Assembly (NCBI GenBank): GCA_022563535.1
Contig: JADFNE010000030.1
Span: forward strand, 1-53,840
Source: Myxococcales bacterium
Lineage (GTDB): Bacteria > Myxococcota_A > UBA9160 > UBA4427
Direction: 5' to 3'
DNA length: 53,840 nucleotides
The first letter of the stretch is position 1. The number at the start of each line of letters is the position of its first letter. The translations under genes and the position numbers were made by a program. Positions 39,479 to 46,140 of this stretch are shown here, piece by piece. Under the pieces are notes generated by a model. It did not search any database, was not told the DNA's origin, and was given only the letters and a program-made list of their open reading frames with translations.

Positions 39479-39835
39479 TTATCGATGAAAGAGCAGCCGA
39501 TCGAAGAAAGCCCGATTCGACGCGACAATTCGATACCCGAGCTCGACAAACCAAATCATTGGCTGTAGCGAAAAAAACACAGAAGTGCGCCGCCAACCCA
39601 GTCCGGAGAGGACGTAGAGAGACGCCCGTCCAGCGCGCAGCACCCGACCGTCAGCGCACAGGACATGCACTTCACGCTCGCAGGCCGCGGCGAGTTCCGG
39701 GGTCATCGGGGGATTGGCTACTGCCTGAAAGGGCTGCGGATCGAAGCGCTCGCCGTGGTCATGCCGCCTGATCCAGGCGACTAGGCGACCTCAAAATCCG
39801 CAGTCACCGTCCCAGAGAACGAGTTCTCGCGCCAT
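39479..39835 (-). CDS. DCC-family (DUF393) thiol-disulfide oxidoreductase with in-frame TGA: candidate selenoprotein
   Basis: Reading from ATG 39835 (GAGGA about ten bases upstream) gives 118 codons to a TAA, with one internal TGA at codon 15 (39793-39791). Around it the frame reads MARELVLWDGDCGF-TGA-GRLVAWIRRHD, the DCC-family start, with TGA at the second cysteine of the CxxC redox pair. Downstream the family pattern continues intact to the end (PPMTPELAAACE, VHVLCADGRVLRAGRASLYV, LSGLGWRR, FVELGYRIVASNR), with no other damage. Length is normal for the family. A SECIS-like hairpin follows the TGA directly, so CxxU with selenocysteine at residue 15 is my preferred reading; a point nonsense mutation is the alternative. 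It is 78 bp downstream of the VOC gene, third in a set with a cytochrome c lipoprotein. Selenocysteine machinery is not in the window. Confidence 0.7.
39757..39790 (-). promoter_or_regulatory. SECIS-like stem-loop directly after the in-frame TGA
   Basis: On the minus strand, GGTC immediately after the TGA (39790-39787) pairs with GACC (39760-39757). An asymmetric internal loop follows, then a 7-bp upper stem GTCGCCT/AGGCGGC (39781-39775 with 39769-39763, one G-T pair). The apical loop is GGATC (39774-39770), with G at its first two positions and about 16 nt between TGA and the first loop G. A short stem-loop just downstream of UGA with an early loop G is what SelB recognises in bacteria. The match is by eye; no folding energy was computed. 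Confidence 0.6.
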
Positions 39836-39913
39836 TGCTGCCAGTTCCTCAATGTTGTGGTCTTCACCGTCATCGCACTGGGTGTGTCGTCTCGCCGAGT
39901 TTTAGAACCCGTA

Positions 39914-40324
39914 TCACTCTTCAGCACCCGGTCCTAGCGGCTGCCCATAACTAAACTCGACGATGTTTCCATCTGGGTCACGAATACCGCAGTAGTACCC
40001 GACCGGGTAGGGCTCTCTGTATGGCGGCCAGACTAGGCGGCCCTCGGACTTTGCATGGGAAGCCAGTTCATCGACGCGTTCGCAGCTTTCCACCGCGAAT
40101 CCCAGATGACCGAAATCTTCGGCCGCCTGGGGTGAGCTCTTGCCTCCATCGATCACCACGATGATGAACTCGCGCTCCTTGCCCGGTTCGCTGAGCCAGA
40201 CGACGCGCGAGTGGTCGTCCCCTCGTTGATGGCAAACTGACATCCCGCAGTAGCGCTCATAGAACGAGATGCAGGCTTCGAAATCGTTCACGTGCAATGC
40301 GATGTGGGTCAAGGCTGTACTCAC
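39914..40324 (-). CDS. VOC (glyoxalase/bleomycin-resistance) superfamily protein
   Basis: 136 aa, one paired beta-alpha-beta-beta-beta domain. LTHIALHVNDFEACISFYERYCG opens the first module, with metal-ligand His in HIALHV; FGHLGFAVESCERVDEL opens the second, and YYCGIRDPDGNIVEFSYG carries the final Glu ligand. It is probably a metal-dependent lyase or dioxygenase; a glyoxalase I-like reaction is possible. GTG start with AAGGAG seven bases upstream, and that site overlaps the stop of the cytochrome gene 12 bp away, so translation is coupled. Next downstream is the DCC-family gene. Confidence 0.9.
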   Translation of the reverse strand: MSTALTHIALHVNDFEACISFYERYCGMSVCHQRGDDHSRVVWLSEPGKEREFIIVVIDGGKSSPQAAEDFGHLGFAVESCERVDELASHAKSEGRLVWPPYREPYPVGYYCGIRDPDGNIVEFSYGQPLGPGAEE

Positions 40325-40336
40325 GTCGAGTCTCCT

Positions 40337-40786
40337 TCACCTCGCCAGGAAGGTCACGATCGCAGCGAGATCGTTTTCCAGATACGGAAGGGCGATCATC
40401 GCGCGGGTGTCACGCTTTGGCGTGTATCCTTCGGGGTACTCGTTGCGCATGACTCTCGCTTCGATGAGTGCGAGGGACGATCCCGCGATCGCGGGCCCGA
40501 TCCCCCCGTCCATCGATGGATCGGGATTGTGGCAGGCGATGCAATTGGCCGAGTAGACCGCCTGGCCTCGGCTCCTGAGGGCTGCGGGATCGTCGGGTGC
40601 TGGTTCCGCTGGTGTCTCGGGATCGCCAGCTGTAGGAGGCGTGGTCGGGGTCTGCTCAGGGGTCTGCCCAGGGGGTTGTTCAGAGGGTTGCGAAGCAGGC
40701 TTGCCAACAGGCGCCTTCTCGGACTCCGAGCATGCGAAAAGGGCGATGACCGCGATCGCGAGAGCCATTCGAAGCAGCACATTCAT
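40337..40786 (-). CDS. c-type cytochrome lipoprotein
   Basis: 149 aa from ATG 40786, chosen so that a lipoprotein signal (MNVLLRMALAIAVIALFAC, lipobox cysteine at residue 19) leads. A Pro/Gln/Thr-rich linker of about 45 residues built from near-repeats (SEQPPGQTPEQTPTT) precedes one class I cytochrome domain with CxxCH in NCIACHNPDPS and a likely distal Met in RDTRAMIALPYL. It would carry electrons at the periplasmic face of the outer or inner membrane. The frame extends 47 codons upstream without signal-like content. It leads the VOC and DCC-family genes, linking that set to redox chemistry. Confidence 0.88.
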   Translation of the reverse strand: MNVLLRMALAIAVIALFACSESEKAPVGKPASQPSEQPPGQTPEQTPTTPPTAGDPETPAEPAPDDPAALRSRGQAVYSANCIACHNPDPSMDGGIGPAIAGSSLALIEARVMRNEYPEGYTPKRDTRAMIALPYLENDLAAIVTFLAR

Positions 40787-40911
40787 GGAAATAGAAACCC
40801 CTGGGCGAGATGCCGTGTGCATCGTTGTTTTCGAATTGTCGTTTACAGAATCATTGTTTACGGAACCGCTCGGTCTAGAACTTAGCCAGCCGGCTGTTCG
40901 CGCGCCTGAAC

Positions 40912-41919
40912 TCAGTGCTCGTTCCAAAAACGATAGACCGTGGTCTGGTCATAGAAGCTTCCGGGGGCGAGCTCTGGACTGGGAAAGTGGCGATGATTCG
41001 CCGCGTTCGGAAAATTCTGGGGACATAGACAAAGACTGAGTTTGCGCTCTTCCGATCCTGGCGCCGCGCTGGTCTCGAAGCGAATGCCGGGCTGAGTGGT
41101 CGCAAGTTCGACGTTGCGTCCAGATCCGGGGTCCCTGAGCCGAGCGACCGCGCGCATGCTCGAGCTGGGTCGGCGCAACACGTAGCAATCATCGTAGTCA
41201 CCGCGCGGGCGGTTCGATGCCCGATTCTCCGCTCCAACTTCTCTCGCCGACCGGAAGTCCATCGAGCTCCCTGCGACCGGCAGGAAATGGCCCGTTGGAA
41301 TTCCCTCTCGATCGACCTCGACAATCTCGTCTGCGGCAATCGAGAGTTCGTGGCCGAGAACCGAGCTGCGGCCACCATCGCGCAGATTGAAGTAGATCTG
41401 GCTCGCGAGATCGACGACGGTCCGCGCATCGGTGGTGGCCCGATGCGTTACCCGAAGGCTGCCGGCCTGATCGAGCCGATACTCGACGCTGCATTCGAGC
41501 TTGCCGGGGTATCCGTCTTCACCCTCCGGACTGCTGTAATGGAAGCGCACACCCTCGCTCAGCGCTTCGCCCCACCACACCGGGCAATTCAAACCCGCCG
41601 CGTTTCTGTGCAGTTTGTGCGGAGCCCCGGGTCCATCCAGCACGCGCAGTTCGAGCTGCGCCCGAGGCGGTCTGTCTCCGACGCGTCCGGCGTAACGGCC
41701 CAGGGTAATGCTCTGGGGATGGGTAGCTTCGAGGTAGGGGGCGAGATTGTCGAACCCCGGGACGATGGGTCCAGCTCTGCCTTTGCGATCGGGTGTTTCA
41801 ATCGAGACGACTGCGGCGCCCAGTTCCATGACGCTTACCGAAACCCCAGCGCTGCTCTCGAGACGAAAGACATGGATCGGAACCCCAGTGGGGGTCGTGC
41901 CAAAATACATTCGCCGCAT
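40912..41919 (-). CDS. galM: Aldose 1-epimerase (mutarotase) family protein
   Basis: 335 aa from ATG 41919 (AGGGG seven bases upstream); the longer open frame runs into the divergent gene and is not protein-like. GalM pattern: SVMELGAAVVSIETPDRKG, VPGFDNLAPYLEATHPQSITLGRYAGRV, HKLHRNAAGLNCPVWWGEA, THRATTDARTVVDLASQIYFNLRDGG and RFETSAAPGSEE near the end. The first catalytic His is in the HKLHRN area; the canonical NLSGHG-like loop reads NLRDGG, so the second catalytic His may be displaced to THRAT. It would interconvert anomers of a hexose. It is divergent from the zinc-ribbon gene and about 125 bp upstream of the cytochrome gene. Confidence 0.85.
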   Translation of the reverse strand: MRRMYFGTTPTGVPIHVFRLESSAGVSVSVMELGAAVVSIETPDRKGRAGPIVPGFDNLAPYLEATHPQSITLGRYAGRVGDRPPRAQLELRVLDGPGAPHKLHRNAAGLNCPVWWGEALSEGVRFHYSSPEGEDGYPGKLECSVEYRLDQAGSLRVTHRATTDARTVVDLASQIYFNLRDGGRSSVLGHELSIAADEIVEVDREGIPTGHFLPVAGSSMDFRSAREVGAENRASNRPRGDYDDCYVLRRPSSSMRAVARLRDPGSGRNVELATTQPGIRFETSAAPGSEERKLSLCLCPQNFPNAANHRHFPSPELAPGSFYDQTTVYRFWNEH

Positions 41920-42843: not shown

Positions 42844-44736
42844 TCAGGCATTCGCCAGGAGTTGCTGGGTTGCAGCGGCGAGGTCTGTCGAGGAAACGAC
42901 TTCGGGGTGGACTTCGCCGATCGTCACCACGACAGTTTTGCGAAGCGAGGGTCCCGCGGATCCGCCCGGGGCCGATGCTTCGCCGTTCCGACCGATTCCC
43001 CGCAGTGCAATGGCGATGCCCGCAACCGATCTGTGGGCCAGAATCGGTTCGAGACGAGCTGCCAGAGGACCGTGGGTGTCCGGCCTCTCTGCGTTGCTTG
43101 CGTTGATCGCGCCGAACAGACATACGATTTGTCCGTTCGAAAGCGCGCGATCAATTTCTCGCAGCGCCTCTTCGACAAGCTCTTCATCGCTTTCGAGATC
43201 GCCATCGAGTTCGCCTTTGCGAACCGGAATCGCATCGAACCAGTGGACGAGTATCCAAACCAATGGGCCGCTCACTTTTGTCGTTTCGAGCACGAATCGC
43301 ACCGGTCGATCGCATGCCGTCGTGATGATCGGCCAATCGAGCCAACTCATCCGATTCGAGTACAGCAGACATGCACCCTCGCGCGGAACATTCGAACACC
43401 CCAGATAGCGGATGCGATATCGGATGAGGCCGCACAACCAGGAGAATAAGCGCAGCAAGAATTCAGAGTGCGCGATGAAGAGGGCGATTCCCGTCGCCGT
43501 ATTGAGCCCCGCGAGCACCAGGAACAGTTCCGCAGTGTCGAGACCGACGGCGTAGAGAGCCGAGACGACGATCGCGGATACCACCATGAAGATCGCCCCC
43601 GCGATGTTGTTGGCGGCAATCACCTGGGACCGAGTTTCTGGGGCTGTCCGGTGCTGAAGCAGGGCGTAGAGGGGAACGATGAAGAAACTTCCCGCCACCC
43701 CCATCCCGCATACATCAAACATGATCCGATAAATCAGTGGATCTGCTTGATTGGCGAGCAGTCCAGCCATGGTCAGCGTTTCCCTCGAAACCTGTGCGTA
43801 GTCGAGCAACCCGATGTCGAGGGGAAAGATCGTGAGGCCGATGGCGCCAAAGGGCACCATGCCCAACTCGATCCTGTCGTCCGAGAGCAGATTCGTGAGC
43901 ACCGAACCGGCCGCAATGCTCAGGGTGAAGAGAGACAAGAAAAGGATGTATATGGATTCGTCACCGTGCACGAACAACTTCACATAGTTGGGAAGTTGGG
44001 CCATCACCATGGCGCCCAGAAACCAGAACCATGAGATCCCGACGATCGAGAGAAGCACAGACGCCTTCTGGCTTGATATTCGGTAGAGGTTTCCGTACTC
44101 CGAGAGCCAATTCCAGCGGATCACGAGGTCGGGGTTCGACGGTGTCGCCGACGGAATCATGCGGCTCGAGATCCAGCCCGCCGCCGACAAGAGCACCAGA
44201 CACGCGGCCACCAGGTACTCGCTCTGCATGATCAGAACGCCGCCAACGATAGTGCCGGTGAGGATCGCGACAAAGGTCCCGCTCTCGACGAACGCCGTGC
44301 CCTCCATCAGTTCCTCATCGCGAAGATGTTGCGGGATAATGCTGTACTTCACCGGCCCGAAGAATGTCGATTGAGTCCCCATCAAAAACAAGATCGCGAT
44401 CAGGTAAGTATCTGCCCAGGGCACCCCGGCGTTCGCCATGATGAAGCCGATCGCCGCCAGCACCATGATCGCGAGTTCGAGAATCTTGACTCGGCGCATG
44501 ATGGTGGCTTTCTCGAATTTGTCTGCGAGCTGTCCCGCCAGCGGAGAGAACAGGAAAAACGGCAGGACGAACAATCCCGACGCAATGGCGATCAGGGTGC
44601 CGGTTTCGGCTTCGGACATGGTCGCCCGAAAGGTGATCATCAAGATCAGGGCCTGCTTGAAGGTATTGTCCGTGAAGGCCCCGAGGAACTGGGTCCAAAA
44701 GAACGGCGCAAAACGTTTTTCGAGTAGGAGCGCCAA
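42844..44736 (-). CDS. LplT-like lysophospholipid transporter fused to a degenerate PlsC acyltransferase domain
   Basis: 630 aa from TTG 44736, which has GGAGG six bases upstream; the frame runs on much further but overlaps the SDR gene. Residues 1-425 are an MFS domain with about 12 helices, starting RFAPFFWTQFLGAFTDNTFK and containing the LplT-like FGPVKYSIIPQHL. Residues about 435-630 resemble the PlsC/LPLAT domain of Aas proteins, but the HX4D motif reads R462-MSWL-D467 (SNRMSWLDWPI) and the usual FPEGT motif reads FGAIN (541-545). Both catalytic motifs are lost, while the surrounding residues stay conserved. The AMP-ligase domain of full Aas fusions is absent. Transport is likely; acyl transfer is not. 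Confidence 0.87.
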   Translation of the reverse strand: MALLLEKRFAPFFWTQFLGAFTDNTFKQALILMITFRATMSEAETGTLIAIASGLFVLPFFLFSPLAGQLADKFEKATIMRRVKILELAIMVLAAIGFIMANAGVPWADTYLIAILFLMGTQSTFFGPVKYSIIPQHLRDEELMEGTAFVESGTFVAILTGTIVGGVLIMQSEYLVAACLVLLSAAGWISSRMIPSATPSNPDLVIRWNWLSEYGNLYRISSQKASVLLSIVGISWFWFLGAMVMAQLPNYVKLFVHGDESIYILFLSLFTLSIAAGSVLTNLLSDDRIELGMVPFGAIGLTIFPLDIGLLDYAQVSRETLTMAGLLANQADPLIYRIMFDVCGMGVAGSFFIVPLYALLQHRTAPETRSQVIAANNIAGAIFMVVSAIVVSALYAVGLDTAELFLVLAGLNTATGIALFIAHSEFLLRLFSWLCGLIRYRIRYLGCSNVPREGACLLYSNRMSWLDWPIITTACDRPVRFVLETTKVSGPLVWILVHWFDAIPVRKGELDGDLESDEELVEEALREIDRALSNGQIVCLFGAINASNAERPDTHGPLAARLEPILAHRSVAGIAIALRGIGRNGEASAPGGSAGPSLRKTVVVTIGEVHPEVVSSTDLAAATQQLLANA

Positions 44737-44907
44737 GCGAACCCTCCGGACTTCAAGCTTGCGAGGTCTCGGGGCCTCATGCAATCCCCCACATGAACGT
44801 CTCCATCGCTGGGCCGCCGGGGCTCTTCTATGCTGGTGCCGGTGCTGACGGACGCTGAAGAACGCTGCACGATGCACAGAGGTACGGCATCTCGAGGAGC
44901 AACGAGC

Positions 44908-45681
44908 ATGGGACTCTTGGACAAAAAGGTGGGGCTCGTTACCGGAGCGAGTTCGGGACTCGGCCGCGCGACCTCGATTCTCGCGGCGCGCGAGGGTTCG
45001 AGGGTCGCGGTCGTGGACATCGACGATTCGGCAGGTCGCGAGGTAGTGGCCCAGATCGAAGAACAGGGCGGAGACGCCATCTTCGTGCATGCTGACGTGA
45101 CACAGCCAGAACAGGTCGAGGCCATGGTGGCCAAAACCGTTTCCGAGTTTGGACGGCTCGACTGGGCCTCGAACAATGCGGTCGGGGGAACGGGTGGTTT
45201 TGACTCGCTGCACCAAACCGACCCAAAGGCCTGGGACGCGACCATGGACGTAGTTCTCAACGGCGTCTTCTACTGCATGAAGTACGAGATACCGGCCATG
45301 CTCGAGGCGGGGAGCGGCTCGATCATCAACATTATTTCGGCGAGCGTCTTCAAGGGCGAGGCGATGCTCGCGGCCTACGTCGCCGCCAAGGGCGGGGTCG
45401 ACGCGCTGACCCGGACGGGCGCGGCAGAGTACGCGGCTCGAGGAATCCGCATCAATTCGGTTGCGCCAGGTGGCTTCGAAACGCCGGGGCTTGCGCGGTA
45501 CTTCGAAAGGTTTCCAGAGCACAAGGAACAGACGATCAAGCAGCACGCGATGCGCCGCATTGGTCAGCCCGAAGAGGTCGCGGAGCCGGTCATCTGGCTC
45601 GCGTCGGATCGGGCGTCGTTCATCACCGGGACCTGCATCGTGTGCGATGGCGGAATTGGCGTGAATTCGCACCTTCTCTAA
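44908..45681 (+). CDS. Short-chain dehydrogenase/reductase
   Basis: 257 aa from ATG 44908 (GAGGAG about nine bases upstream). Classical SDR: cofactor loop TGASSGLGRATS, ADVTQPEQ, NNAVGGTGG (the NNAG motif reads NNAV), active-site Ser in NIISASV, and YVAAKGG as the YxxxK pair. The C-terminal LASDRASFITGTCIVCDGG is typical. D in VVDIDD suggests NAD(H) preference. Substrate is not evident. It diverges from the LplT-like gene; a 10-bp inverted repeat lies 49 bp past its stop. Confidence 0.94.
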   Translation: MGLLDKKVGLVTGASSGLGRATSILAAREGSRVAVVDIDDSAGREVVAQIEEQGGDAIFVHADVTQPEQVEAMVAKTVSEFGRLDWASNNAVGGTGGFDSLHQTDPKAWDATMDVVLNGVFYCMKYEIPAMLEAGSGSIINIISASVFKGEAMLAAYVAAKGGVDALTRTGAAEYAARGIRINSVAPGGFETPGLARYFERFPEHKEQTIKQHAMRRIGQPEEVAEPVIWLASDRASFITGTCIVCDGGIGVNSHLL

Positions 45682-46140
45682 TCTGAGGGCCAATACCCCA
45701 CCGCCTGACCCGAATCGCAGCTTGAAAACACAATGCGACTGTGGTCGCATTGTAATTTCAACTTGGGCTACTTCGCGCTAGCCCGGTGGAATTCCACGAC
45801 TTTTCAAGTGTCTGCTCGACTCGGCGACCAGTCCGAGAGGAGCGGGGGAATTCGGGGTGAATCGTTTTGTCTGTGGTGAAAATACCCGATACGAATTAAT
45901 TTGAAATACCATTCTATTCTCGCTGCTTAAAGCTCAAAGTTGCGGCATCATGCTGGGCCGGATTTGTGACTGGAAGTCGCGAATCCCGGGCGTGAAGACG
46001 GGCGGGTCGCCGAGTCCAGGCGAAGGGCCGCGGGCAGGTTTGATTCCCGAATTCAAATGAATTTCATTTTTTGCTAGGCGACGACTGAGGGTATCTGACA
46101 GGGTGCGCCTGAGTTGAAAACACCACGCAGGAGCTGAATC
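45682..46140. other. Intergenic region, 459 bp, with palindromes
   Basis: No gene is seen. Besides the hairpin at 45730-45753, a 15-bp AT palindrome AAATGAA-T-TTCATTT lies at 46055-46069, followed by a short T run; it may be a terminator or an operator for the following gene. The 46141 ATG has AGGAG eight bases upstream. Confidence 0.5.
45730..45753 (+). terminator. Perfect 10-bp inverted repeat after the SDR gene
   Basis: ACAATGCGAC (45730-45739) and GTCGCATTGT (45744-45753) flank a TGTG loop. The position, 49 bp past the SDR stop, fits a terminator, but the T-run after it is weak (aattt). On the opposite strand it is followed by TTTT. A regulator-binding palindrome is the alternative. Confidence 0.45.

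Follow-up and report, generated by a model that had tools for sequence, protein, structure and literature searches.

A gene of the DCC1-like family with an in-frame UGA at the second cysteine position of its redox motif was identified in the window, a stretch of 53,840 nucleotides from the genome of a Myxococcales bacterium (G000). It very likely encodes a selenoprotein and thereby a new selenoprotein family, namely a presumably thioredoxin-like C-xx-U redox protein, although the incorporation of selenocysteine (Sec) and the activity are inferred from computation without experiment.

Reading frame, domain and recurrence of the UGA

The reading frame, shown by computation, starts with an ATG at 39835, ends with a TAA at 39481-39479 and is interrupted by a single TGA (Table 1). 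Its coding layout is MARELVLWDGDCGF-UGA-GRLVAWIRR...LLFHR-TAA, and if the UGA is read, the product of 118 residues begins with MARELVLWDGDCGFUGRLVAW.... The read-through product matches the Pfam model DCC1-like PF04134 with 53.7 bits (cut-off 27.8, E 6e-14) over residues 6-109, and the DxxCxxC redox motif of this family is present with U as the second C (DGDCGFU). The same model is matched by all seven Sec proteins of profile A1 (see below), whereas none of the NCBIfam models matched the product.

A previous sequence-only reading had claimed a 118-codon DCC frame with a single TGA at the second cysteine of DGDCGFC and with intact start, ribosome binding site and TAA, of which a gene caller would report only the C-terminal 75 residues. 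The coordinates, the ATG and the TAA were confirmed, the ribosome binding site remains putative, and the truncation held on the mechanical ORF list, which contains only the C-terminal 75 amino acids (39479-39706).

Table 1. Positions of the DCC gene and its elements in the window
Feature	Position	Strand	Remarks and basis
DCC-family selenoprotein gene (very likely)	39479..39835	(-)	118 residues, Sec at 15 (C12-G-F-U15), TAA end; frame, PF04134 match, TGA-bearing relatives, purifying selection after the TGA
UGA codon for Sec (inferred), second redox position of DGDCGFC	39791..39793	(-)	sequence; TGA at the matching codon in 18 other genomes
TGC, first redox cysteine (C12)	39800..39802	(-)	UGA here in 16 related genes
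Bacterial SECIS hairpin UCGCCUG-GAU-CAGGCGG	39764..39780	(-)	loop begins 17 nt past the UGA; all 7 pairs formed, covariation across 18 sequences, no such hairpin in 17 Cys relatives
GAGGAA, putative ribosome binding site	39845..39850	(-)	9 nt before the ATG; sequence only

In a first search of 148 relatives, reading through stops, a TGA was found inside the DCC gene in seven genomes. Profile A1, built from the sequences of these seven, was then applied to 379 genomes from the phylum and yielded 18 TGA genomes, to which a further class added one (G480). In total, 19 genomes from at least 11 families, all of one phylum, carry a TGA at exactly the codon of the second cysteine. Since it recurs in 18 other genomes, the TGA in the window is not due to chance. 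In 16 of the 19 genomes, among them G001 from the window's genus, a TGA also replaces the first cysteine codon, resulting in UxxU motifs (DGDUGFU and similar), while CxxU is found only in the genome of the window, G002 and G003. One UxxU relative (L080 in G074) is unusual in that its motif reads DGDUVPU, the two Sec being separated by VP. The ordinary CxxC occurs in other members of the window's family (G004, G006, G011, G014 and others), and Cys forms were also found in named genomes labelled Armatimonadetes, Myxococcaceae, Handelsmanbacteria and Latescibacterota.

A search for Sec forms in a second phylum yielded none: all those recovered from 64 genomes of the phylum Handelsmanbacteria carry Cys. 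A tblastn search of plasmids gave no match. Two apparent candidates were rejected, since the stop codon in question is the regular gene end in both: the TGA of L139 closes a gene with the motif CGFC, and the TAG of G446 closes one of the Cys form.

Within the genus, differences after the TGA are mostly located at third codon positions. The dN/dS ratio (NG86) of this part is about 0.1-0.2 in the within-genus pairs with G000, with dS near saturation, and the frame downstream of the TGA is therefore translated.

Downstream hairpin and selenocysteine machinery

A gap-free alignment of 18 Sec genes, covering 48 nt from the UGA, shows a hairpin with the consensus CCGCCUG-GGU-CAGGCGG, consisting of a 7-bp stem and a 3-nt loop (core GCCUG-GRU-CAGGC). 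It follows the second UGA at 17 nt and the first at 26 nt. The same stem was recovered by RNAalifold unaided, 96% of the cells are paired, and in three pairs both partners have changed (C-G to U-A, C-G to G-C). The covariation is higher than in 498 of 500 shuffles and in all slid controls. Of the seven pairs, five to seven are formed in the Sec genes, but at most four in the 17 Cys relatives checked. Furthermore, the arginine encoded in the 3′ arm is specified by AGG or AGA in 18/18 Sec genes, compared with 15/243 Arg codons elsewhere in those genes. It is therefore the RNA, not the protein, which sets the codon choice.

The bacterial SECIS (bSECIS) model requires a loop of 3-9 nt with a G in its first two positions, a stem of 4-16 bp, a distance of 16-37 nt from the UGA and an MFE of at most -7.5 (PMC13188914). 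The window hairpin meets it with the 3-nt loop GAU, 7-8 bp, 17 nt and -13.4 kcal/mol (22-nt hairpin), and both spacings, 17 and 26 nt, lie within the permitted range (PMC13188914). In the relative G150, the hairpin folds at only -7.0. Most relatives and the selD of the same genome have the loop GGU instead of GAU, and it is possible that the latter lowers the affinity of SelB. Taken alone, the 49-nt fold of the window is unexceptional (z -1.3), so that the case for the hairpin rests on the comparison. A scan of the window against Rfam at gathering thresholds gave nothing.

The machinery for Sec insertion was found in the genome of the window (4.63 Mb, 98% complete). It comprises SelA (540 bits), SelB (C-terminal winged-helix domain with 54.8 bits in a 690-aa frame), SelD (336 bits) and a tRNA-SeC with the anticodon tca (UCA), which scores 73.2 bits to RF01852 and on which ARAGORN agrees. 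SelB exceeded the cut-off in 18/18 TGA genomes tested, but also in nearly all Cys-form relatives tested. As it is common in the phylum even where DCC has Cys, co-occurrence of the machinery is necessary but hardly discriminating.

The selD gene (L073 / G000:C15:56143-57069 (-)) is itself a selenoprotein gene with an in-frame TGA at VPAGG-U-ARKLSAEG. This TGA is followed, 27 nt downstream, by the hairpin GGGCCUG-GGU-CAGGUCC, whose apical core matches that of the DCC gene. Further selenoproteins were looked for genome-wide with the pattern CCTGGRTCAGG in place of a full selenoproteome scan. The pattern occurs 12 times, and only at selD and the DCC gene is it combined with an upstream in-frame TGA and a long frame after it.

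The sequence-only reading had proposed a CxxU selenoprotein, which was to be refuted by the absence of selB/selC, by relatives with cysteine codons only, or by signs of decay in relatives. The proposal was supported, and none of these tests went against it: all four genes selA, selB, selC and selD were found, which rules out the absence of selB/selC, relatives within the genus and throughout the phylum share the TGA at this site, homologues with Cys aligned to it exist, and the frame after it is conserved. What had been missed is that most relatives are double-Sec (UxxU).

Alternative explanations for the in-frame UGA

The UGA could be read as Cys or Trp due to recoding or a changed code, or be passed by general readthrough. 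The product with C in place of U indeed aligns well with the Cys homologues. However, this is very unlikely, given that the genome has tRNA-SeC(UCA) along with all sel genes and that the hairpin fits both the SECIS model and the SECIS of selD. Moreover, UGA still serves as a terminator, as seen in the adjacent glyoxalase-like gene, whose stop codon is TGA.

A decaying pseudogene or a sequencing error, with the TGA as a nonsense mutation in a DCC gene, is suggested by a lone in-frame stop at a Cys codon, only one base away from TGC. This explanation can practically be ruled out, because the TGA is shared with 18 other genomes, in 16 of which the other redox Cys is likewise replaced by a TGA while further stops are absent, because dN/dS after the TGA is well below 1, and because a matched covarying hairpin is present. 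A regulated stop, giving a short peptide or a second product from the internal ATG 44, for which a frame of 75 aa exists, is likewise very unlikely, since that product would lack the redox motif and the first strand, Met 44 belongs to the PPMTPEL motif also found in Cys homologues, and the strict coupling of TGA and SECIS-like hairpin would be left unexplained.

Proposed function, evolution and known systems

Returning to the selenoprotein reading, an AlphaFold2 model (pLDDT 87) shows a strand (4-8), the motif and a helix (13-25), and it predicts C12 and U15 to be placed as in thioredoxin and glutaredoxin. The top Foldseek match was the glutaredoxin Mrx1, which is weak (E 0.016, TM 0.41), and the fold assignment hence rests mainly on the family. 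A sequence search of the PDB matched only calmodulin, which was rejected as spurious.

The DCC protein would be a small thiol/selenol-disulfide oxidoreductase with the active site C12-G-F-U15. SelB with Sec-tRNA(UCA) would bind the stem-loop downstream of UGA 15, at which the ribosome would then insert Sec rather than terminate. The protein may cycle between an open thiol/selenol form and a C12-U15 selenenylsulfide and in doing so reduce or oxidise an as yet unidentified partner, and a diselenide is possible in the U-xx-U relatives. With a single hairpin behind both UGAs, one SECIS could serve the two codons, which is also inferred.

Conserved neighbours hinting at a substrate were not found outside the genus. 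Within it, the DCC gene is preceded by two others, one for a glyoxalase/VOC protein and one for a protein resembling cytochrome c (window 39914-40324 and 40337-40927 (-)), and all four species share this order, which was not seen beyond the genus. Immediately upstream of the DCC gene (window 39870-39911 (-)), RVLKLGETTHPVR followed by a stop resembles the last codons of a KSEPFKYSWDEFVKDG... gene (EVE/PUA-like by eye). This gene is kept at the corresponding place in G001-G003 and seems to be deleted in the window, leaving a scar. Elsewhere (window 42844-45750 (-)), a 968-aa frame looks by eye like an MFS-like transporter fused to an acyltransferase, and its N-terminal extension is possibly not real.

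In the gene tree, Sec and Cys forms interleave with four changes and weak inner support, which does not settle whether there were one or several Sec/Cys switches. The genus forms a clade (99/97 support) with one UxxU and three CxxU proteins, and the Sec forms of relatives outside it are all UxxU. As most relatives are UxxU, the CxxU of the window is, in the simplest reading, likely a secondary single-Sec form in which the first Sec was replaced by Cys, the direction of evolution being inferred. A bolder reading, to which we give a slight preference over its negation, is that this DCC subfamily was ancestrally UxxU throughout the phylum, with a diselenide redox centre and one SECIS for both UGAs, and that the genus of the window is replacing its Sec residues in single steps (one species with UxxU, three with CxxU). 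If true, the genus offers naturally occurring intermediates with which to ask why both selenocysteines are retained.

The finding extends the list of selenoproteins by the widespread DCC/DUF393 domain family and pins down the redox site of this family. A small enzyme that exists naturally as CxxC, CxxU and UxxU within one bacterial family allows a direct probe of the role of Sec at each position, and the gene family makes it possible to test whether a single SECIS can serve two UGAs that lie nine bases apart. Under current annotation, such genes would be truncated, as seen in the ORF list and from the lack of an NCBIfam model. The sequence-only reading knew of no DCC-family selenoprotein, and none was found here: the family is absent from a 2026 catalogue of 119 prokaryotic selenoprotein families (PMC13188914), NCBIfam 2026 contains no DCC selenoprotein, the deep-Sep paper of 2025 (PMC12013277) does not mention DCC, and the searchable literature yielded nothing for DCC, DUF393, COG3011 or PF04134 together with selenoprotein or selenocysteine. 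Priority for a Sec-containing DCC family is thus likely but not certain, as subscription papers and preprints were outside the search.

With the DCC1-like thiol-disulfide oxidoreductases (PF04134, DUF393, COG3011), e.g., DCC1 of Arabidopsis, the window protein shares the DGxCxxC motif and a full domain match. For plant DCC1, a redox role was shown, as it reduces the mitochondrial carbonic anhydrase 2 (CA2) (PMC7598583). No described member with Sec was found, whereas the window protein has Sec at the second redox position and its relatives at both. The CxxU thioredoxin-fold selenoproteins (SelW-like, Trx7/PDZ, AhpD-like; PMC13188914) are likewise small redox proteins encoded with a UGA and a SECIS, but belong to different sequence families. 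Two Sec spaced by two residues, as in the 16 DCC relatives, are known from the UxxU selenoproteins (Prx-like thiol:disulfide oxidoreductase, NF041115 metal-binding protein, FmdB family; PMC13188914, PMC2398784), whose domains are unrelated; the window protein, in contrast, keeps Cys at the first position. Finally, SelD of the same genome is likewise encoded with an in-frame UGA followed by a CCUG-GGU-CAGG hairpin. It is, however, a selenophosphate synthetase, and the loop of its hairpin begins 27 nt downstream of the UGA, as against 17 nt in the DCC gene of the window.
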